A stretch of 20,175 bases of DNA from a virus. Under the pieces are notes generated by a model. The model worked only from the letters and a program-made list of their open reading frames with translations, was not told the DNA's origin and searched no databases. Below, in pieces: positions 4,253 through 15,015 of the stretch. Position 1 is the first letter of the stretch. Each line of letters opens with the position of its first letter. The position numbers and the translations under genes were made by a program. The stretch spans positions 1 to 20,175 of IMG/VR virus record IMGVR_UViG_3300018426_000214, one strand, 5' to 3'.

Positions 4253-5992
4253 ATGGAAACCTATGGACCAACACTAGGAATCTCACAAGAGATTCACGCC
4301 ATGAAATATCGCAGCCACGGGGAAACTTTTCGTGAAGCAATGACACGTGTAGCAGAAGCATTGAAGGATGGAGAAGCACACTTCAATAACTTCCGAACTA
4401 TCCTGTATGAACAACGGTTCCTACCTGCAGGACGTGTGCAGTCAGCAATGGGTGCACCTCGTCGTGTAACACCATACAACTGCTTTGTCTCAATGACTAT
4501 AGAAGATTCAATGGACGGTATCATGGAAGCTGCTCGTCGTGCAGCAGAGACAATGCGCCTTGGCGGGGGTATCGGATACGACTTCAGTACACTACGTCCA
4601 CGTGGCACACTAATCAAGTCGTTGGACAGTAAGTCATCTGGCCCAGTGTCATTCATGGGTATCTTTGACGCAGTATGTAAGACTATTGCATCTGCAGGGC
4701 ATAGACGTGGAGCACAGATGGGGGTGCTACGTGTTGATCACCCAGACATTGAAGAGTTCATCACGGCTAAGAACAACAGTGATACACTGACACAGTTCAA
4801 TATCTCTGTGGGTGTCACGGACGAGTTCATGACTGCAGTAAAAGAAGACAAAGATTTTGACCTACAGTTTGACGGACGTGTGTACAAAACTGTGAGTGCT
4901 CGTGCTCTATGGGATCAGATACTACGCAGTACATGGGACTGGGCAGAGCCTGGGATTCTATTCATTGATCGTATCAATAAGAAGAACAACCTTCATTACG
5001 TAGAAAAGATTGCAGCCACAAACCCATGTGGAGAGCAGCCACTTCCACCAAACGGTGCATGTTTGTTGGGGTCATTCAACTTAGCTAAGTACGTAATAGA
5101 ACATGAAGGTAAGTACGTATTCAATATGAATCAACTACGTAATGACATTCCTCATGTGGTACGTGCAATGGATAACGTTGTAGATCGTGCAACCTATCCA
5201 CTGCTAGAACAAGAGACAGAGGCAAAGAGCAAACGCCGTATGGGTCTTGGTGTTACAGGTGTAGCCAATGCTATTGAGGCATTAGGATTTGAGTATGGTA
5301 GTGATAGGTTTCTGCAGACTCTTGAAGAAATCATGGGAGTAATTAGGGATGTGGCATATACTACGTCAGTTGAGCTTGCACTTGAGAAAGGTCCGTTTCC
5401 TCTCTTTAGTCAGGCATACCTTGGTTCTGATTTTGCTAAGTCTTTGCCTGATAATATTCGTGATCTCATTAGCAAGCACGGTATCCGTAACAGTCATCTT
5501 CTTTCGGTTGCTCCAACAGGAACTATCAGCTTGTCAGCCGACAACGTATCCTCTGGAATCGAGCCTGTCTTCTCACATTACTACGACAGAACTATCCAAA
5601 CCTTCGATGGACCCAAGGTTGAACGAGTAGAGGACTACGGCTATCGTGTGTTTGGTGTGAAGGGTAAGACTGCAGATGAACTGTCTGTGTTTGATCACGT
5701 TAAAGTATTGAACGTTGCCTCTCGTTACGTTGACTCAGCATGTTCAAAGACATGTAACACAGGTGACGATGTAACATGGGAAGAGTTTAAGAAAGTGTAC
5801 ATGGATGCATACGATGGTGGTGCATCAGGGTGTACAACCTTCCGTGCTGCAGGTAAACGTTATGGCATTCTAAATGCATCCAACTCTGAGGATGTTGCAG
5901 AAGAACCAGTAGTAGAGGAAACGCAAGACTACGTAGAAGAAGGGGGTGCTTGCTACTATGATCCTGCAACTGGCTTACGTCAGTGTGAGTAG
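4253..5992 (+). CDS. nrdJ: Class II (adenosylcobalamin-dependent) ribonucleotide reductase
   Basis: A 579-residue single-subunit reductase converting ribonucleotides to deoxyribonucleotides for phage DNA synthesis. Active-site residues are visible: Cys77 in TPYNCFV and Cys270 in [10 protein letters not shown] form the expected redox pair, and NPCGE (Asn257, Cys259, Glu261) carries the thiyl-radical cysteine. The 11-residue step from Cys259 to Cys270 matches C408/C419 of the Lactobacillus leichmannii enzyme. Other family blocks are [36 protein letters not shown] and [10 protein letters not shown]. There is no N-terminal ATP-cone and no NrdB gene in the window, which together with sequence style supports class II. 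The enzyme would need B12 from the host. The C-terminus has an acidic linker and then Cys567 and Cys578, presumably shuttling electrons to the active site. Overlaps the DUF1289 gene. Confidence 0.93.
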
Positions 5993-6182
5993 GAACAGAG
6001 GAAAGAAACTGGGCACTGTCCCATCACCCTGCGTGAAAGTCTGTCGGATAGACACTGATGGCTTTTGCGTGGGGTGTAAAAGAACCATTGACGAGATACG
6101 TGAATGGTGTATAATGTCGGAGTACGAACAACAGAAACTTTTATTTGAACTATTGTGGAGGAAAGATAATGGGAACACGTAA
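5985..6182 (+). CDS. DUF1289 family cysteine-rich small protein
   Basis: About 65 residues with the full DUF1289 signature: SPCVKVCRIDTDGFCVGCKRT then EIREWCIM. Four cysteines (16, 20, 28 and 31 from the GTG at 5985) are spaced C-x3-C-x7-C-x2-C and probably bind a metal or Fe-S cluster. DUF1289 proteins are common in Alpha- and Gammaproteobacteria and have no settled function. The frame stays open upstream to 5946 (GTG) and holds an ATG at 5958; I chose the GTG at 5985 because it keeps the overlap with nrdJ to eight bases, but no strong ribosome binding site decides between them. The 3' end overlaps the next gene by 14 bases. Confidence 0.8.
   Translation: MSRNRGKKLGTVPSPCVKVCRIDTDGFCVGCKRTIDEIREWCIMSEYEQQKLLFELLWRKDNGNT
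6088..6115 (+). promoter_or_regulatory. Possible sigma70-type promoter inside the DUF1289 gene
   Basis: TTGACG at 6088-6093, a 16-base spacer, and a perfect TATAAT at 6110-6115, about 55 bases before the ATG at 6169. It would add transcripts for the last three genes of the + strand arm. It lies in coding sequence, so chance is a real alternative. Confidence 0.3.
6157..6162 (+). promoter_or_regulatory. Ribosome binding site fixing the start of the 148-residue gene
   Basis: GGAGGA six bases before ATG 6169. It places the start at 6169 and not at the upstream in-frame codon at 6145, which lies before this site. Confidence 0.7.
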
Positions 6183-7191: not shown

Positions 7192-7229
7192 AAAAAAAAG
7201 AGGGGGCTGTAATGGCCCCCTTATTTCTT
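7190..7229. terminator. Bidirectional Rho-independent terminator between converging arms
   Basis: Perfect seven-base stem AGGGGGC (7201-7207) and GCCCCCT (7215-7221) around the loop TGTAATG. On the left is a ten-base A run (7190-7199), giving - strand transcripts a long U tract. On the right TTATTTCTTT gives + strand transcripts a weaker U-rich tail. The stem overlaps the stop codon of the 1209-residue gene at 7221-7223. It separates the two transcription units and probably ends both. Confidence 0.88.
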
Positions 7230-10200
7230 TGGTTTAATGTCTCTACCTGCAAGCATGAGAAGTCTTTCTATGTCACGGTAATCGCTGTAATCAATATCGC
7301 CCTTTTTACCGTACCTTCTTATAAACTCTGCCTCTGCCGCCTTACGTTTAGATTTAGGAAGCTTCATATATTCATTTGTACGAGTAACTAGCCTACTTTT
7401 TACAAGTGCTCTACCATCACCTATTTGATTTCTATAATCACGTACATTAGACATTAAAGAGTCACGTTCAAACAATCGCACGTACTGCTCACGTTCATAT
7501 TTTTTCTGTAGAGATTCACTCTTATCCCACTGGCTTCCTCGTTTAATACCTTCCCGTTTAGAACGACGAATAAAAGAAGGTAACATTTCTCCTACTTTAC
7601 TGTCTTGCCAATCACGCACACTGTAAATTTTGTGTCTGCTACCTAAAGTAAACTTAGGATCATCCATACCTATCTCAGATAAATAATCTAAGGTTTCATT
7701 TCTTTCCCGTAAAGAAGTACCACCCAAAAGCTTTGCCCATATATAGCGTCTTTCTTCCCCTGTATTTGTTACAGTCTCTCTTCGGGGTAGTTGGTCTTCG
7801 TAATCTGGATCAACCAATCCACGGCTTATTGCTTGCCGTGTTGCACCAATTTGAAACTGTGGATCATCAATAAGGAAGTCAGTACCAGATTGTTTTCTTT
7901 CGGTAGTACGGAAACCCATAGCACGTTCAGCTTCAACCACTTGGAATAGTGGATTAGCAAAACGTGTTACATATTGACCAAAGATTTTACCAAACAATAG
8001 ATCACGTTTAGCTTCATCAGGTTCATTTTCAAGACCACTAATCATGGATGAAAATTCTTCTACCAATACATTAGTAACACCTGTACGTCCTTGTGGTACT
8101 AAGAATAATTCCACCCAATCATTCTTTGCATCCCAATCATCAAACGTTCCTTTATTTCTTTCTACTGCAGCACGAACAATCCAGTTCATTTGTCCTACAG
8201 GATAATCAGCAAGAACGTTAGTCTCTAAATCGGTAAATGGTATACCAACCTCTTGATAGTTTTCTCCACGATCTCCTTGATCCCTTTGAAAACTATACAG
8301 CCCCATAAACAAACCTATACCAATCATGTTATTAGCTATACGTTCTGTTTCTCTAGGAGTCAGTGGTCCCGCAACACTACGATCAGCTAAACTATATAGC
8401 TTACGCCCAAGGGGAGAGGCTGAACCCGCCGCAAGTTCACCAAAGTACTCTATACCGTTTGCAATAAATCTAGGAAAAGGTATAACCAGAGTAGCAGGAG
8501 ACTTACTAATCATCTCTGCTGTTTTTCTAAGTACGATGTTCTCAGGCTGGGCTGAATAGGTAACACGTAGTGCTTTTCTGGCTGAGTCATCTACTAGATT
8601 TGCAAATGCTCTTGCATTCTTAGGTCTAACAGTTTCTGCATCACGAAAGAAGTCCATAAGCTTTCCTTCGTTCAGTGCCCCTTCAAAATCCACACCGTAC
8701 TCACGCTTTACTAATCTTTTTAACTCACCATAGAATGTAGCATTACGAATAAGCAGTTCTTGTACACGGTTAGGTGTGTTCAAAGCACCAACTAAATCTT
8801 CCATGTCTGACATCATAGTATCAAACACCCTGTCTACAGCACCAATTGGATTGTTCTTTCTACTTGCTCCACCTCTTCCAAGATTTAATTGTATCTCGTT
8901 TAAAGTAGTGTAAATTTGCCTTTGATGATCGGGGCTTTGTGCTAATATATACTCAGAAAAAGCTTTGGCAGAACGAGGATCAGCAAACATATATTTAAGA
9001 TTGTCTAATGTGCCTGTCCATACAGAGCTTTCTGTGTAAGGTACTAATGCTTTTGCTCCACCTTTAATGCCTTGACGTTGGAACTCTAGCATTGTGTTGG
9101 ATAGCAATGCGTTTAGTGATTCCATAGGAGCACGAATTACACCACTTTTAAAGTTACGTACTGCCACCGCAAACGGAGCAACTAGCGCACCCTTAGCTAT
9201 AGCTTCTGACCGTAAGAAGTAACGAGTGTATAGATCACTAAAGACATTTTCTTTTTTAATTTTAATCTTTGAATCAAGATCGTCAGTCAAACCTTTTGGT
9301 TTTACTTTACTAATACGTCCCCATGTTCCAAGAATACTACCAGCTTCTGATACAGTACCGTATGAAGCAACAATAAACTCTTCAAACTTCAAACCGTTCT
9401 TAGCCAAGATGTTCATTAAATCATCAGGTTTTAACTTTTGCTCCATAACAAGATGCAACATATCATCAATACGAGTTTTACGTTTACCAAACTCTTCTGG
9501 CATAATTTTCTTGATGTCTATCATTGCACCAATAAGACCTTCAAGAGTCTCTGGTTTCAGAATAGCCATAGTAGCTGCGTCTTCAGGAAGATTTATCTTT
9601 GCCCCTGCCTCCGAGGACATAAGGTCTTGAGTTTTTCTTTGGCCTAAAGCAAGCAAAGCTTCTTTGTCTATTACTTTTTTACCGTCTACTTCTTTAAAAA
9701 TAGAAACGTCAAACTTACTTTCAAATGCCTCTGCAAACTCATCTGCTACAACCTTGTTGGCTTCCAGTTTTTTACGTACTTCTAAACGTAATGCAGCCTC
9801 ACGTCTTCCACCAGCTTCTATTGCTTGTCTAGCTTTTACATACTGAGAATTGTCTATCCACTTCCTAAATCCCTTGCCTGTATTCTGCACCCACTTTACT
9901 GGTGGAGCAAGTGTAAGTATGTTTAAGGTTGTCATGGTAGCCGCACCTAACATACCCATTACGTCACCCTGATCAAACATCCGAGAGAATCTTGAAGCTT
10001 CTACATTTACATCCCCTAGTATTACAGAAGGATCAACAAACTCTTTAGCAAACTGTAATGTATTTATTTCCCCTAAATTCATGTCGCTTTTTAAGAATAT
10101 TTCCATTCCTTTTTTACGTGGAATATTTTCCCCGTTAAGGTATTGGTACACAGTCATTGCCTGTTTATCTATTCTTTCAAGTTCTCTATCTAGTCTACGA

Positions 10201-10850
10201 TTAAAAAACTCTTGTTTTGTTTCAGGCACAAATCTAGGATCACCCTCTGGGGTTGTTAAATAGCTTTCATACTTAGGATCATTCTCAGCAATATCCCAAA
10301 TCCATTGTAAAGTATCCTCATACCCCTGAGACTTTGCATAAGGCTCAAACTTTTTTAATAGCTCTTGTCGTTCTGCCCACTGTATTTCAGCATTAGCACG
10401 TAAATCTTTTAATCTTTCAGGAGAAAACAATCTGTCTACTGCAGCTTCTGTTTTAAGTTGTAATGCTTCTAAGTACTCACTGTTAGGATCATCTTCTCTT
10501 TCTAACTCACTTATCAAATAAGGGCTAGTGGGATCATCTTCTAGTTCAGCTTCTATGTTTGCACGATACTGTTCTTGTAACATAGACAATGTATTTTCTT
10601 TATACTTATCTACGTCGATACCAAGTACTTGCATATCTTCATAATCTTGATTATTAAACCTATCTTGTTCAGACACAATCAAACTCATGTCTGTAACCGT
10701 AGGCTCTTCTGCAGTTAATAAACTTTCAGGAACATTAAAACTTGTAGAAGCTTTATCATCAGAAATAGGAGCAGTAACTGTAGGAGTTACTACTTGAGTA
10801 TCATTTGTTTCTTCATCTAACATACTCTGTGGTATATTAAAGTTTGCCAT
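7221..10850 (-). CDS. Large internal virion / DNA-ejection protein candidate (1209 aa)
   Basis: The last and largest gene of the virion arm. Size and position after other ejection candidates match T7 gp16-type internal core proteins that leave the capsid and form a channel into the cell. The N-terminal 140 residues are acidic and carry two linear duplications: FNIPQSMLDEE (4-14) with FNVPESLLTAEE (38-49), and DDPTSPYL (105-112) with DDPNSEYL (120-127). Hydrophobic or amphipathic stretches occur near 298-319, 551-564 and 840-853, suited to membrane insertion. The last 120 residues are basic, ending KPKK. I see no lytic transglycosylase motif. AGGA eight bases before the ATG is its ribosome binding site; two bases separate it from the 414-residue gene. 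Role is inferred, not shown by a recognised domain. Confidence 0.8.
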   Translation of the reverse strand: MANFNIPQSMLDEETNDTQVVTPTVTAPISDDKASTSFNVPESLLTAEEPTVTDMSLIVSEQDRFNNQDYEDMQVLGIDVDKYKENTLSMLQEQYRANIEAELEDDPTSPYLISELEREDDPNSEYLEALQLKTEAAVDRLFSPERLKDLRANAEIQWAERQELLKKFEPYAKSQGYEDTLQWIWDIAENDPKYESYLTTPEGDPRFVPETKQEFFNRRLDRELERIDKQAMTVYQYLNGENIPRKKGMEIFLKSDMNLGEINTLQFAKEFVDPSVILGDVNVEASRFSRMFDQGDVMGMLGAATMTTLNILTLAPPVKWVQNTGKGFRKWIDNSQYVKARQAIEAGGRREAALRLEVRKKLEANKVVADEFAEAFESKFDVSIFKEVDGKKVIDKEALLALGQRKTQDLMSSEAGAKINLPEDAATMAILKPETLEGLIGAMIDIKKIMPEEFGKRKTRIDDMLHLVMEQKLKPDDLMNILAKNGLKFEEFIVASYGTVSEAGSILGTWGRISKVKPKGLTDDLDSKIKIKKENVFSDLYTRYFLRSEAIAKGALVAPFAVAVRNFKSGVIRAPMESLNALLSNTMLEFQRQGIKGGAKALVPYTESSVWTGTLDNLKYMFADPRSAKAFSEYILAQSPDHQRQIYTTLNEIQLNLGRGGASRKNNPIGAVDRVFDTMMSDMEDLVGALNTPNRVQELLIRNATFYGELKRLVKREYGVDFEGALNEGKLMDFFRDAETVRPKNARAFANLVDDSARKALRVTYSAQPENIVLRKTAEMISKSPATLVIPFPRFIANGIEYFGELAAGSASPLGRKLYSLADRSVAGPLTPRETERIANNMIGIGLFMGLYSFQRDQGDRGENYQEVGIPFTDLETNVLADYPVGQMNWIVRAAVERNKGTFDDWDAKNDWVELFLVPQGRTGVTNVLVEEFSSMISGLENEPDEAKRDLLFGKIFGQYVTRFANPLFQVVEAERAMGFRTTERKQSGTDFLIDDPQFQIGATRQAISRGLVDPDYEDQLPRRETVTNTGEERRYIWAKLLGGTSLRERNETLDYLSEIGMDDPKFTLGSRHKIYSVRDWQDSKVGEMLPSFIRRSKREGIKRGSQWDKSESLQKKYEREQYVRLFERDSLMSNVRDYRNQIGDGRALVKSRLVTRTNEYMKLPKSKRKAAEAEFIRRYGKKGDIDYSDYRDIERLLMLAGRDIKPKK

Positions 10851-10852
10851 GC

Positions 10853-12097
10853 TTAACGTCCTGTTTTAGTAACCAGCCACATAGGATCATTATTTTTATT
10901 AGCAAATACATAAGGTAGAACAAGGGGGTCTTCTGTTGATCTAGCCGCATTGCCATAGGTGTGGGCCATCCCTGTATATATCGCTAACTTACCATTAATA
11001 ACAATTACATCTCCGTAAGAAATTCCACTAGGTTTTAGGCCATCCATTTGAAATAATTCACCCAAAGAATAGTTATCTTTACCTTCTGGCATTTTAAATT
11101 TTGTACCAAGGTCTGCATCTGCACCTAATTCACCTGCTTTGTCTGAGGAATATGCTTCCGCTGTTTGTGTAGCTATGCTTCTTAATGCACTTACAGCACT
11201 AGTTAACTCTGCATCAATAACGCCTTGACCATTCTTGGAACCACCTACATTATTAATGCGGTCTTGATAAGTCAACGCTGCATCAATACGGGCAACTTGA
11301 GCTTTACCTTGAGCACCTGCTGTTATATCCTGATATGTACCCTCAAGGGATGTAAGATTGTATGTGCTTGCAACTGTATCTTTATAAAATTTTATATCCC
11401 TGATTGCGTCAGCATTTGACATAACATCTTTAGATGTGTCAGGATCACGTGCCGCATCTGCTTCTGTTTTAGCTACTTTACCAATCTCTTGAAGTAAAAA
11501 TTCGTTTTGTTCAGCTAAAGTCATATAATCGCTATCGGGATCAGTTGACGGTTCCATAGTCATAAGTTTTTGAACAACACTAGCTCTCATCTTTTTAAGA
11601 GTATCAAATTCTTTTGGCTTAGGAGTTAGAATTGTAGTAACTACGTCCCTATCTTGCTCAAATGCTGTAGTATAATCCATGTCTTTTAATTGAGCTTGAG
11701 TAAAGTCTAACCTTCTTTCGCCTGGAGGACCAACAAACAGTTTACTAGACTCTAATTCTGGAGTGTACTTTAATATAGTATTAGGATCGTAACCATTAGC
11801 CAATGCTGTTTGAGCATATGCAACCATTTGTTCTGCATATCCAGCACCTCTTGACATAATAAATGATATTCTACCTTTGTCAAAGTTTAATGCCTCTAAT
11901 GATCCTGCTAATTTTTTATCTGCTGCTCGTTGTGCTTTTCTATCTGCAGCAGCTTGAAGACGTTGCTTGGTCGCCTCTTCTTCAGCAAGCATTTCTAATC
12001 TAAAATCTTGTTGTCTTTGATCTTCTTTTGCTGTTTCAATATTTTCAGAAACTCTAGTTCCAAACCCACCAACAAATGCACCAAAATTAAACGCCAT
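10853..12097 (-). CDS. Probable internal virion protein (414 aa)
   Basis: I do not recognise a domain. The N-terminus starts with a short Gly/Phe-rich piece (FNFGAFVGGFGTRV) and continues with a long charged helix (about residues 16-70, with KEDQRQQDF and EEEATKQRLQAAADRKAQRAADKK) that should form a coiled coil. The middle is helical and polar, and the C-terminal third turns to mixed strands (YGDVIVINGKLAIYTGMAHTYG) that could be a small beta domain. The length and position between two other ejection candidates suggest an inner-core protein. The ribosome binding site GGAGG lies upstream of the ATG. It overlaps the 169-residue gene by 11 bases. The role is inferred from context alone. Confidence 0.75.
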   Translation of the reverse strand: MAFNFGAFVGGFGTRVSENIETAKEDQRQQDFRLEMLAEEEATKQRLQAAADRKAQRAADKKLAGSLEALNFDKGRISFIMSRGAGYAEQMVAYAQTALANGYDPNTILKYTPELESSKLFVGPPGERRLDFTQAQLKDMDYTTAFEQDRDVVTTILTPKPKEFDTLKKMRASVVQKLMTMEPSTDPDSDYMTLAEQNEFLLQEIGKVAKTEADAARDPDTSKDVMSNADAIRDIKFYKDTVASTYNLTSLEGTYQDITAGAQGKAQVARIDAALTYQDRINNVGGSKNGQGVIDAELTSAVSALRSIATQTAEAYSSDKAGELGADADLGTKFKMPEGKDNYSLGELFQMDGLKPSGISYGDVIVINGKLAIYTGMAHTYGNAARSTEDPLVLPYVFANKNNDPMWLVTKTGR

Positions 12098-12596
12098 CTT
12101 TATTCCTCCGTGCCATCAATCCACCTAGAATATTTTCTTCTGGACTTTGTTCTTCCATAGGTTCTTCTATTTCTTCTTCTGGTTCTATGTTTGATTTAGA
12201 TAATGCTAAAGCAATACGAGATTCATCAATCAAGTCTGAGTCAACTGTTTTGTTTGAACCAGTTTCATATTCTACGTCAGCTTCTTCTGCTAGGTATGCC
12301 ATAGTTTCAATCAGTACTGGCATAATTAATATACCTACATCAATACTATGCTTACCTTCCATGACCCCTGCAACCTGCATTGCATTTGCTATAGTTGTAA
12401 GCGGTATTCCTGTTTCCATTACATCTAGTAACTGAGGCAAAAGTTCTGGATTTACAAGACGAGGGACGTAATATTCTAATGCTTCTTCAACAGTAGTGTA
12501 CTGAGGCGGTTGTTGCCACGGCCTACTACCTAACTCTGCAGTTAGAGATTGTCCAGGGATAGGTCTATCAAATGAGGGCGAAGGCATATCAACCAT
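12087..12596 (-). CDS. Conserved-looking phage structural-region protein (169 aa)
   Basis: A 169-residue protein, function unknown. The proline-rich N-terminus (RPIPGQSLTAELGSRPWQQP) leads into a helical domain (about 35-115: TTVEEALEYYVPRL, LLDVMETGIPLTTIANAM, IDVGILIMPVLIETMAYLAEEADVEY). The stretch IDVGILIMPVLIETMAYLA is hydrophobic but looks like a buried helix, not a clear membrane segment. The C-terminal 40 residues are strongly acidic (EPEEEIEEPMEEQSPEE) and end LMARRNKDGV. From memory, similar proteins sit among internal virion genes in marine podoviruses. It overlaps neighbours on both sides (eight and 11 bases), which argues for translation in step with them. Confidence 0.7.
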   Translation of the reverse strand: MVDMPSPSFDRPIPGQSLTAELGSRPWQQPPQYTTVEEALEYYVPRLVNPELLPQLLDVMETGIPLTTIANAMQVAGVMEGKHSIDVGILIMPVLIETMAYLAEEADVEYETGSNKTVDSDLIDESRIALALSKSNIEPEEEIEEPMEEQSPEENILGGLMARRNKDGV

Positions 12597-12786
12597 TTTT
12601 TAATTCCATTCTTCCTTTACGTATCTCAGACACGTATTGTGCAATACGATCACGAGGTTCTAGTTTCTTAGGCTTTTGTGGTTTAGTATCCCGTGCCAAA
12701 AGACCACCGCTTTGCTGTGACATTTCTTTAGGTGTATCTTCTTTAGGCAATTGAAGATTATTCATTGTCATATAACCTATATTCAT
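12589..12786 (-). CDS. Small basic hypothetical protein (65 aa)
   Basis: A 65-residue polar protein. The ATG shares one base with the stop of the 652-residue gene (TAATG), and the TGA overlaps the next start by eight bases, so it sits neatly in the operon. The middle is Lys/Pro-rich (RDTKPQKPKKLEPRDR) and likely disordered, followed by a short helix (IAQYVSEIRKGRMEL). No domain is recognised. The motif GGLLARDTKP echoes GGLMARRNKD at the end of the 169-residue protein, suggesting a shared short linear motif in the two neighbours. Confidence 0.65.
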   Translation of the reverse strand: MNIGYMTMNNLQLPKEDTPKEMSQQSGGLLARDTKPQKPKKLEPRDRIAQYVSEIRKGRMELKNG

Positions 12787-14744
12787 TATGCTCCTCCGAT
12801 TCCAAATACGTTACCAAGAATGCTACCGCCAATAGTTTTTGTAAGATCAGAAGTAAACAGTGAACCAATTAGTGAACCAAATCCTGCGGATGCCTCTGCA
12901 TCTGATTTGTATTTCTGTGCATCGAACTGTGCGTCAGCTTGTAGCTGCACCATAGCTAAATCATTTATACGTTTACGTTCATTCTCAGCAGATGTCCAAG
13001 CCCACTCCATGTTATCTGAATAATTCTGCCACAAGTTATTATATGCAGATTGGGATATACCTAGAAGTGAACTAGCATTAATTTCATTGGCACGATTGAC
13101 TGCTGCCGTATCTGCAGTAGCAATCTCTCTACGCCACTGTGCATTTGACTGATCAATAACTAAACGGTTCTGTGCGTTAAACTGATCACGTTGGTTGTTT
13201 ATCTCGGCATTAAAACGTTCAACTACATTGACCTGACCTGCATTAAATTGTGCCTGTGCATTTGTTTGTGCAGCATTAAACTGTGATGTGTTACTTGCTA
13301 GACTTGCAAAGAACTGATCAACTTGGTTTTGTGATGTAGCATTAAATTGTTGTGCCGCATTTGCTGCAGCTTGATCTGTAAACAAAGCCTGTGCACGTTG
13401 TTGTGCATTAAACAATTCCGTTTGTTGTTGATTGCTTAGGTTAGCCATGTCCATCTGCAAGAAAGACTGAGCATTCTGTACAGCAGCTTGTTGTCTATTG
13501 TTTAAGTTTGCCATGTCTAACTGAGACAGTGCTGCAGCTTCTGCCATTACCATAGCCTGTTTATTAGACAGGTTGTTTAGGTTCATTGTGTTAGTAGCAC
13601 GAGCATTCTCTAAAGCTATCTGTTGGTCTGCAGTAAAATTCATATTGGCAATGTCACCAATACGAGCAGAGTTAGCTACACGGGCTTGAAATGCTTGGTC
13701 AAACTCTTGTCCCATAAATGTTGCACGTTGTTGTGCCGCAAGCATAGCACGTTGTTGACGGTTTGACAAGTTCTGCGATTCAAACTGTGCTTGTGTTGCA
13801 GCGTCAGCCTGTGCAATTGGTAGTGCGGATTCCATAGCTGCTTGAATAACCGCTTGTCCCGCCATAGAGGAAGCACCTAGACCACGTGAAGACATAGCAG
13901 ACATTGCTGCTCTCATTGCACCTGATGCCCAAGGAGGTGTTGCTCCACCCTCAAACTGTTGCATCAAACCTTCTAGTTGACCTTGTACAGTAGCCTGACT
14001 AGTTGGTGTAGCTTCTGCTGCTTGAATTTGTTCTGTAAACTTAGCTGCTTTTTCTGCATCTGCGGCACCTGAAATAAGCTCACCATCACGTATCTCTCTA
14101 GCAGTAGGTGAGTTTACCATAGAAGCTGTACCTTGCTCTGCATTTAAGAAAGATACAGATGTCTCCCCCTCCTGCATTGCACGTACTCGTGCAGGGTCAC
14201 TCACTTGTCCTGTCTGTGCTTGTGCGCCTGTTACTTCATCTGCTACTTGAACAGGAGACATTTGAGCAGCTTGTGAAGCAGTTATACTATCTGCTTGTTG
14301 TGTACCTGCAATTGCGGTAGGTACAGCAGTCTGCCCATACACCTGACCTGACATAGGAGATACTAACTGTCCTTGTTGAACTGTAGTGCCTACAGGAACA
14401 ACAGCAGAGCCTACTGGTAATCCTGGGGATGTAGCCTGTTGGACCATCGCCTGTTGCAAGTTAGAACCAGCATCAATGTTTTGTTGAGGAATTGTTTGCT
14501 GCATAAGAGCACGAGGGTTTGCTTGTGGTTCTGCTTCATCATTGGGCATACCCCCTGGGGCTAGTTTAACTGCACCACCTTTTGCCATTTGCATAGCTTT
14601 GTTTTGATACATGTCCATCATTTGTTTTTTGTCTGGGTTTTGCATAAGATACTGATCAAACCCTGACATGTCAGTGCCCTGATACCCTAAAGAGTTTGCA
14701 ATACGTTGCATTGCTTCAGGTTTAAATCCTCCGAACTGCATCAT
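12786..14744 (-). CDS. Gln/Ala/Asn-rich repeat protein, putative DNA-ejection protein (652 aa)
   Basis: A 652-residue low-complexity protein. Residues 1-65 form a small helical head ending in MAKGGAVKLAPGG. Residues 70-310 are Gln/Ala/Pro/Thr-rich and probably flexible. Residues 325-456 carry a 22-residue repeat built on NLSNRQQ (325, 391, 413, 435), and residues 466-542 carry seven consecutive 11-residue units starting QFNA or a variant (466, 477, 488, 499, 510, 521, 532). Eleven-residue periodicity gives long right-handed helices or hendecad coiled coils. The C-terminal 35 residues (GFGSLIGSLF, IGGSILGNVFGIGG) are hydrophobic and Gly-rich, as in membrane-active peptides. Composition and position suggest an internal protein ejected with the DNA; not proven. 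AAGGAA precedes the ATG. Two ATG codons in tandem open the gene. Confidence 0.8.
   Translation of the reverse strand: MMQFGGFKPEAMQRIANSLGYQGTDMSGFDQYLMQNPDKKQMMDMYQNKAMQMAKGGAVKLAPGGMPNDEAEPQANPRALMQQTIPQQNIDAGSNLQQAMVQQATSPGLPVGSAVVPVGTTVQQGQLVSPMSGQVYGQTAVPTAIAGTQQADSITASQAAQMSPVQVADEVTGAQAQTGQVSDPARVRAMQEGETSVSFLNAEQGTASMVNSPTAREIRDGELISGAADAEKAAKFTEQIQAAEATPTSQATVQGQLEGLMQQFEGGATPPWASGAMRAAMSAMSSRGLGASSMAGQAVIQAAMESALPIAQADAATQAQFESQNLSNRQQRAMLAAQQRATFMGQEFDQAFQARVANSARIGDIANMNFTADQQIALENARATNTMNLNNLSNKQAMVMAEAAALSQLDMANLNNRQQAAVQNAQSFLQMDMANLSNQQQTELFNAQQRAQALFTDQAAANAAQQFNATSQNQVDQFFASLASNTSQFNAAQTNAQAQFNAGQVNVVERFNAEINNQRDQFNAQNRLVIDQSNAQWRREIATADTAAVNRANEINASSLLGISQSAYNNLWQNYSDNMEWAWTSAENERKRINDLAMVQLQADAQFDAQKYKSDAEASAGFGSLIGSLFTSDLTKTIGGSILGNVFGIGGA
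13119..13349 (-). repeat. Seven tandem 33-base (11-residue) repeats
   Basis: Within the 652-residue gene. The + strand sequence shows GCATTAAA or a close variant recurring about every 33 bases, coding QFNA-type unit starts. Units differ at the other positions, so this is an old, selected protein repeat and not a recent slippage product. Confidence 0.8.
13377..13772 (-). repeat. Degenerate 66-base (22-residue) repeats
   Basis: Six 22-residue units (codons 325-456). Four begin NLSN/NLNN followed by a Gln-rich run (325, 391, 413, 435); those at 347 and 369 are more diverged. The period is twice that of the adjoining 11-residue array. Confidence 0.65.
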
Positions 14745-14760
14745 TATATTTCCTTATAAA

Positions 14761-15015
14761 CTATTTGCTTCCAATTTGCATCCATACAGATGCCGCTATA
14801 AAAGTAAGCAATCCTACTGTGGTTATTTTTACTATAGTAGACCATATACTTTTCTTTGTATCACGATATGCTTCTAACAAGGTACGCATTTCTGATATAT
14901 CTCTTCGGGCATCTTCATCCTGTAAGCCCATAGACTTTAATGCTTCACAAGCACCACGTCTTGCTGCACGATCAAGCATAGCCTCTAGTTCTTCTGGTGT
15001 CAAGTTTATACTCAT
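14761..15015 (-). CDS. Small membrane protein, holin candidate (possibly DUF6127)
   Basis: An 84-residue protein with a charged helical N-terminus (TPEELEAMLDRAARRGACEAL, DARRDISEMRTLLEAYRDTKK) and one clear membrane segment at about 58-81 (WSTIVKITTVGLLTFIAASV). The layout resembles phage proteins that I recall as DUF6127; that assignment is tentative. A single C-terminal membrane segment with a cytoplasmic coiled head would fit a small holin, yet no endolysin or spanin gene lies next to it here, so a virion or ejection role is also possible. Its ATG overlaps the stop of the glycine-rich gene by four bases (ATGA), a layout that usually couples translation. Confidence 0.7.
   Translation of the reverse strand: MSINLTPEELEAMLDRAARRGACEALKSMGLQDEDARRDISEMRTLLEAYRDTKKSIWSTIVKITTVGLLTFIAASVWMQIGSK

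Follow-up and report, generated by a model that had tools for sequence, protein, structure and literature searches.

Gene A, which heads a block of five genes in a genome fragment of a short-tailed phage, encodes a rod of 11-residue units that keeps a single register, and among homologues the length of this rod changes in whole units. The gene block headed by A most likely makes the DNA-injection channel, and a tape-measure-like design known from long-tailed phages is found here in a gene of a short-tailed phage. On balance we favour for gene A the role of an internal virion protein leaving the particle together with the DNA or before it, a positional counterpart of P22 gp7 and T7 gp14 provided with a hendecad rod.

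Genomic Context and Layout of Gene A

The window, that is, the whole stretch of DNA analysed (20,175 bases), makes up a viral record by itself and is not cut from a larger genome. The proteins it encodes have their matches in Puniceispirillum phage HMO-2011 and its relatives, and it corresponds to a fragment of an HMO-2011-type podovirus. The right part of the window is all on the minus strand and runs from P22-type tail genes through fibre genes to the five-gene block A-E; the upstream matches were to the "tail protein" family phrog_10775, to phrog_5107, and to tail/stabilisation families. The features of the block are the following.

12786..14744 (-): gene A, repeat protein of 652 aa heading block A-E, from the open reading frame and homologues
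14571..14732 (-): gene A N-terminal three-helix domain, residues 5-58, with AKGGAVK at its end, from AlphaFold2 and tblastn
14004..14570 (-): gene A linker, residues 59-247, Ala/Gln/Gly/Thr/Pro-containing, mostly of low pLDDT and free in length among homologues
13794..14003 (-): gene A conserved core ahead of the rod, residues 248-317 (TPPWASGAM...RGLGASS...SALPIAQADA), from invariant residues and an anchor HMM
13065..13772 (-): gene A hendecad rod with Asn ladder, residues 325-560, from repeat, register, and homologue analysis
13119..13349 (-): seven QFNA-type units of gene A, residues 466-542, from the repeat check
12885..13052 (-): gene A post-rod helix with conserved Trp, residues 565-620, from the AlphaFold2 helix 565-631
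12789..12884 (-): gene A Gly-rich C-terminal tail, residues 621-652, from hydropathy
12589..12786 (-): gene B, 65 aa, with a GGLLAR motif
12087..12596 (-): gene C, 169 aa, PIPGQSLT...WQQPP N-terminus and GLMARR C-terminus, the most conserved partner of gene A by alignment
10853..12097 (-): gene D, 414 aa, fast evolving, in the place of P22 gp20/T7 gp15, its role taken from gene order only
7221..10850 (-): gene E, 1209 aa, in the place of P22 gp16/T7 gp16, with an internal-virion-protein-like predicted fold, from a model and fold search

In the alignment, residues V253, P270, W272, A273, A311, and A315 are invariant in the core, and D577 is nearly invariant in the post-rod helix. The Gly-rich tail is replaced or extended in relatives by a Peptidase_S74 (S74) domain or by a domain with the sequence CWVAREVYG. 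Many close orthologues (L005, L007, L009, L010, L024, and that of CRP-1, L088:8660-11941) carry an N-terminal extension of 380-560 residues before the KGG domain, which is missing from gene A of the window (site 14744-14761). The 84-aa gene that precedes gene A (14761-15015, minus strand) matches DUF6127 (Pfam E 1.5e-23) and has one hydrophobic helix with a 19-residue mean of 1.78, holin-like by appearance; it is placed outside the fixed block because it was found at only 23 loci. A small Cys-containing protein at 5946-6182 on the plus strand (CVGCKRTIDEIREWC) presumably recalls DUF1289.

Repeats and Asparagine Ladder

An earlier sequence-only reading had proposed seven consecutive units of exactly 11 residues starting at positions 466, 477, 488, 499, 510, 521, and 532, and all of them were confirmed (QFNATSQNQVD, QFFASLASNTS, QFNAAQTNAQA, QFNAGQVNVVE, RFNAEINNQRD, QFNAQNRLVID, and QSNAQWRREIA). 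Identity at lag 11 over residues 466-545 was 8.0 sd above shuffles, the top shuffle reaching 5.05 across all lags. The same reading had described a 22-residue period with NLSN or NLNN at the unit starts. The period held, at 4.8 sd for lag 22 over residues 320-470 (99% of shuffles below 3.9, top shuffle 5.3), and so did the starts at 325, 391, 413, and 435; those at 347 and 369 are EFDQ and NFTA. For residues 320-560 combined, the values were 7.5 sd at lag 44, 6.8 at lag 22, and 5.1 at lag 11. The repeats of gene A are real and stronger than had been stated.

The 22- and 11-residue zones are not separate: a single register of 11 residues starts at residue 325 and continues through both to about residue 560. 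Read in steps of 11 from 325 to 556, the first register position is NAENNNNENNNNDNFNNNNNDN, with Asn at 16 of 22 places, a count matched by none of 20000 shuffles when the best of 11 registers was taken. The hydrophobic period inside each zone is 3.67-3.68 residues, which equals 11/3 and not the heptad value of 3.5; against shuffles at 99% it was significant for residues 457-560 and not for 313-460 alone. From zone to zone the hydrophobic positions move within the register, and the Asn positions stay put. Six Phe lie at a spacing of 11 within residues 467-522, and a strict seven-fold [FW]-x(10) pattern was reached only six-fold. The rod is composed of 21% Ala, 16.5% Gln, 14% Asn, and 14% charged residues, with no proline. 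In 142 of 143 homologues no other register has more Asn than the ladder, 70% of whose positions are Asn as compared with 10% elsewhere. In an alignment of 85 sequences, Asn makes up 80% or more of fifteen ladder columns.

Rod Length among Homologues

Rod length was defined as the distance from P309 to W537 (window numbering), using profile anchors on the conserved flanks, and it was measurable in 143 homologues. It goes from 151 to 668 residues, with 228 in the window, and the difference from the window value is an exact multiple of 11 in 142 of the 143. The offsets seen were -77, -66, -55, -44, -11, 0, 88, 110, 220, 308, 330, 418, and 440 residues. The lone exception, L101, stands at +89, and its gene also has a frameshift near the start. 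Nine apparent off-by-one lengths arose from loose motif matching of the rod ends, and the anchor profiles left only L101. Twelve of the 13 distinct non-zero offsets are multiples of 11, which has a probability near 4e-12 if lengths are random modulo 11. As controls in the same proteins, the linker ahead of the rod showed 58 distinct lengths evenly spread modulo 11, and the tail behind it 42 distinct lengths, also spread. Offset 0 was present in 76 sequences, and rod length is fixed across the main clade. The tree of the anchor stretches requires at least 17 length changes, a count that is approximate because tree support is uneven.

The longest rods (L154, L157, L158, and L159, with 558-668 residues) come from a group in which length changes in steps of 110 residues; as straight helices they would measure about 84-100 nm. 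The rod of L154 contains a 110-residue super-repeat with a self-identity at lag 110 of 48% in amino acids and 55% in nucleotides. Since this super-repeat is still recognisable, some of the length steps are recent duplications, and the 110-residue duplications came from copying. For single-unit steps simple slippage is not an obvious source, because adjacent units of the window are only 35% identical in DNA at lag 33, over a background of 27%.

Predicted Structure

The AlphaFold2 model of gene A was built from 85 sequences (mean pLDDT 67, pTM 0.26). It shows near-continuous helices at residues 293-433, 438-561, and 565-631, and three helices in the N-terminal domain (9-18, 26-35, and 37-54), with pLDDT of 83-97 over residues 1-50 and 67 over 51-60. 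Disorder of the repeat region would have spoken against the long hendecad helix proposed before; the model predicts the rod as helix, which argues against disorder, and the proposal agrees with the 11/3 period, the long predicted helices, and the lengths shifting by whole hendecads. Rod packing is not readable from the model, a single chain of low pTM. In comparisons with PDB folds no match had E below 5, and the best Z in a second comparison was 3.9.

The C-terminus had been described as Gly-rich, hydrophobic, and membrane-active in looks. It is indeed Gly-rich; its hydrophobicity is weak, with a best 19-residue Kyte-Doolittle mean of 0.97 (1.37 in the HMO-2011 and CRP-3 orthologues) against the usual 1.6 for a membrane span, so that the case for a membrane-active tail is weak in this member. 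In HMO-2011 the protein gp25 ends in the extra CWVAREVYG domain of some 75 residues (L082:10508-10732, minus strand) straight after the Gly-rich tail, and this domain also occurs in about ten contigs (L042, L044, L050, L054, L055, L058, L067, L069, L077, and L080). It gave no link to other phages, as tblastn matched HMO-2011 alone among phage records. The N-terminal KGG domain, searched by tblastn for other kinds of phages, matched CRP-1, CRP-345, and HMO-2011 only.

Relatives and Gene Block

Homologues of gene A are widespread among short-tailed phages, most of them marine, and tblastn detected them in 27 phage records: Roseobacter CRP phages, HMO-2011, Pelagibacter HTVC103P, 104P, 115P, and 033P, Vibrio CHOED, Aeromonas MQM1 and 1233, Pseudoalteromonas Slicky01, Sinorhizobium phiM6, Rhizobium phages, and one environmental podovirus. 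Among viral contigs at least 596 stretches were related to gene A, and two distant members used as queries added more. Bar one evidently automatic name, the relatives are annotated as "hypothetical protein", and searches of gene A against Pfam, NCBIfam, PHROGs, and PDB sequences gave no match. Prophage relatives were considered and rejected: all 15 matches in genome contigs (L163-L177) sit in metagenome-assembled genomes, several of them on contigs of 55-63 kb, which is phage size. They are attributed to binning contamination by phage contigs, since MHASMcontig_807657 occurs in genomes of two phyla. According to the literature, few groups of marine viruses are as abundant as the HMO-2011-type phages (PMC9038755). 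In the literature searched, no study of DNA injection by them was found, nor virion proteomics for any relative of gene A.

The search for homologues beside the same gene cassette was successful. Nine genomes (HMO-2011, CRP-1, CRP-3, HTVC103P, Slicky01, CHOED, MQM1, phiM6, and ctYwJ313) share the order A-(small genes)-C-D-E, and the last gene is the largest in all nine. The block comes after P22-type genes for head and tail. The correspondence of genes D and E in distant phages is by place and size, as no sequence kinship to D and E of the window was detectable there. Gene C occurs in the same phage records as gene A (27 of 27, tblastn) and is possibly a chaperone or docking protein. Its residues P12, G15, T19, G81, and D86 are invariant, and it ends in GLM[AS]RR, to which the GGLLAR of gene B is similar. 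Searches with genes C and D gave no match to anything known. The model of gene E (pTM 0.63) matched, by predicted fold, "Internal virion protein" of Synechococcus phage S-RIP1 (E 5e-8) and of Pelagibacter phage Eyrgjafa (E 1.4e-6), and also several "large polyvalent protein" entries with E down to 2.5e-16; against the PDB there was nothing with E below 0.1 and no Z above 5.1. From the nine-genome synteny and the fold of gene E, gene A appears to be encoded in an operon of internal virion proteins, and the block A-E is quite probably an ejection operon.

The S74 Branch

At the C-terminus of the CRP-3 orthologue Pfam recognises a Peptidase_S74 domain, above the cut-off (E 6.7e-6). The domain is absent from gene A of the window and, among the members scanned, belongs to the CRP-3 branch only. 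By tblastn the CRP-3 C-terminus resembles the C-termini of annotated DNA injection, ejection, and transfer proteins, plus a few fibres such as a tail fibre of Synechococcus S-SSM7. Proteins ending in this domain directly precede gp20/gp16-type genes in the P22-like phages H6/1, 199E37-1, and AH02, which is the position that gp7 occupies in P22. When the S74 tail was searched against PDB sequences, no S74 structure was among the matches listed. Homology to the S74-tailed injection proteins beyond this domain was rejected, since the core of gene A against gp7-position injection proteins gave an hhalign E of 0.26, equal to that of reversed controls. The link between gene A and injection proteins is therefore made through S74, a domain also borne by tail fibres.

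The injection protein of Salmonella phage 7-11 has a distant relative in SU10_022, matched by tblastn at E 6e-4 over residues 46-204 and thus not in S74. SU10_022 is taken as gp22 on the assumption that the published gp numbers follow the locus tags of the record. Proteins gp20-24 of SU10 were reported in virions and were missing from the genome-release intermediate (PMC9509320). As this chain from gene A to gp22 joins a mobile domain and a weak match, with no homology of gene A outside S74, it points to a kind of function and not to common ancestry.

Discussion

The proposal that gene A encodes an ejection protein has indirect support from where the gene stands in the operon, from the predicted fold of E, and from the S74 domain common to the CRP-3 branch and annotated injection proteins. 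That it is unlike T7 gp14-16, as was also suggested, agrees with the sequence searches in so far as these gave no relatives in Pfam, NCBIfam, PHROGs, or PDB; its operon place equals that of T7 gp14 and P22 gp7, and a counterpart of these is likelier for that reason than something apart. As an ejection protein, the gene A product would be packed inside the head, with the rod joining the folded N-terminal domain and linker to the Gly-rich end, and would go through the portal as a helix. Its copies may associate in register, the Asn ladder and the 11/3 helix being suited to a straight bundle or barrel, and together with the products of C, D, and E they could form part of an envelope-crossing conduit. 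Whole-hendecad steps would keep the side chains of each copy on the same partners as rod length changes. We infer that gene A may self-associate into a bundle or tube and may act as a ruler. It is a speculative extension, to which we give low credence, that short-tailed phages employ a tape-measure principle, in which the rod sets the length of the ejected-protein conduit or internal stack in 1.65-nm steps, lineages being tuned to their hosts by whole 11- or 110-residue units. Several observations run counter to ejection: rods of the greatest length, which at 668 aa would measure about 100 nm as a straight helix, would not fit unbent into a head, the tail has no clear membrane span, the core of gene A shows no detectable homology to injection proteins, and genes C and D match nothing known.

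A rival reading is a shaft on the outside of the particle, either a trimeric fibre or similar to a tail needle, in which parallel chains would form a coiled coil with layers of Asn; one branch would trimerise it by means of a self-cleaving C-terminal S74 chaperone. S74 is familiar chiefly from trimeric fibres of phages, the Asn ladder and hendecads fit coiled coils that are parallel and in register, genes for tail fibres are found a short way upstream of gene A, and rods of up to 668 aa are more easily placed outside the head. We nevertheless think it rather unlikely, given that gene A is always at the head of the C-D-E block and not in the fibre block, that S74 of this sequence also ends annotated injection proteins at the gp7 position, and that most members have neither S74 nor a recognisable receptor-binding end.

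The conserved length in the main clade and the whole-unit changes, together with the constant company of gene C, whose product may serve gene A as a chaperone, would also suit a morphogenesis factor, namely, a scaffold or ruler for the tail or internal core that acts inside the assembling particle and is not ejected. The P22-type scaffold gene sits elsewhere, before the coat gene, however, and no part of the short-tailed virion is known to require such a ruler, which makes this role distinctly improbable. Finally, the 11-residue steps could be the mere footprint of repeat-mediated DNA recombination in a passive, neutral spacer, as the super-repeat of L154 indicates for some recent duplications. 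We regard this as very improbable, since units of the window are too divergent in DNA for easy slippage, the Asn ladder is kept as top register in nearly all homologues, and length is fixed throughout the main clade.

Compared with known systems, gene A resembles P22 gp7 and T7 gp14 in standing at the head of a small-to-giant series of ejection genes and in its Gly-rich end, and the protein in the gp7 place of P22-like phages can bear the C-terminal S74 type of CRP-3. A review lists T7 gp14-like proteins of 181-240 aa and gives those of the T7 group predicted membrane helices (PMC8954989); gene A and its homologues, in contrast, have from 460 to more than 1300 aa, a long hendecad rod, and no clear membrane helices. 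With the S74-tailed injection proteins (Salmonella 7-11 gp20, Cronobacter GAP52, and distantly SU10 gp22) it shares a Gln/Asn/Ala-rich body and a Gly-rich stretch, but the final S74 of 7-11 gp20 and GAP52 is found only in its CRP-3 branch, and 7-11 and GAP52 are without 11-residue periodicity, while H6/1 gp17 has some at 22 and 33. In the literature searched, mostly outside subscription journals, no description of hendecad rods in ejection proteins was found. Like trimeric coiled-coil fibres and needles, for example P22 gp26, gene A has a long helical shaft, with S74 in one branch; it differs from them in gene position and in having no recognisable receptor-binding end.

The closest parallel to gene A is that of the 11-residue units of siphophage tape-measure proteins. 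In some of these the units are marked by Trp or Phe, and relatives vary in length by entire units (Belcaid et al. 2011, PMC3271669); in the TP901-1 tape measure some whole-unit deletions were tolerated and a deletion of one and a half units gave no visible plaques (PMC5099701). Gene A likewise has tandem 11-residue helical units, a Phe marker, and whole-unit variation; it differs in belonging to a short-tailed phage with P22-type tail genes and in having the Asn ladder as marker. That it is itself a tape-measure protein was rejected on the gene neighbourhood, where no tail-tube or tape-measure chaperone genes were seen beside it, and on the tape-measure family models of Pfam, NCBIfam, and PHROGs, none of which matched. 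A whole-unit rod in the injection block of a short-tailed phage offers a testable handle on how a channel of the right length gets built. In its design, though not necessarily by descent, gene A ties ejection proteins to the tape measures of long-tailed phages.
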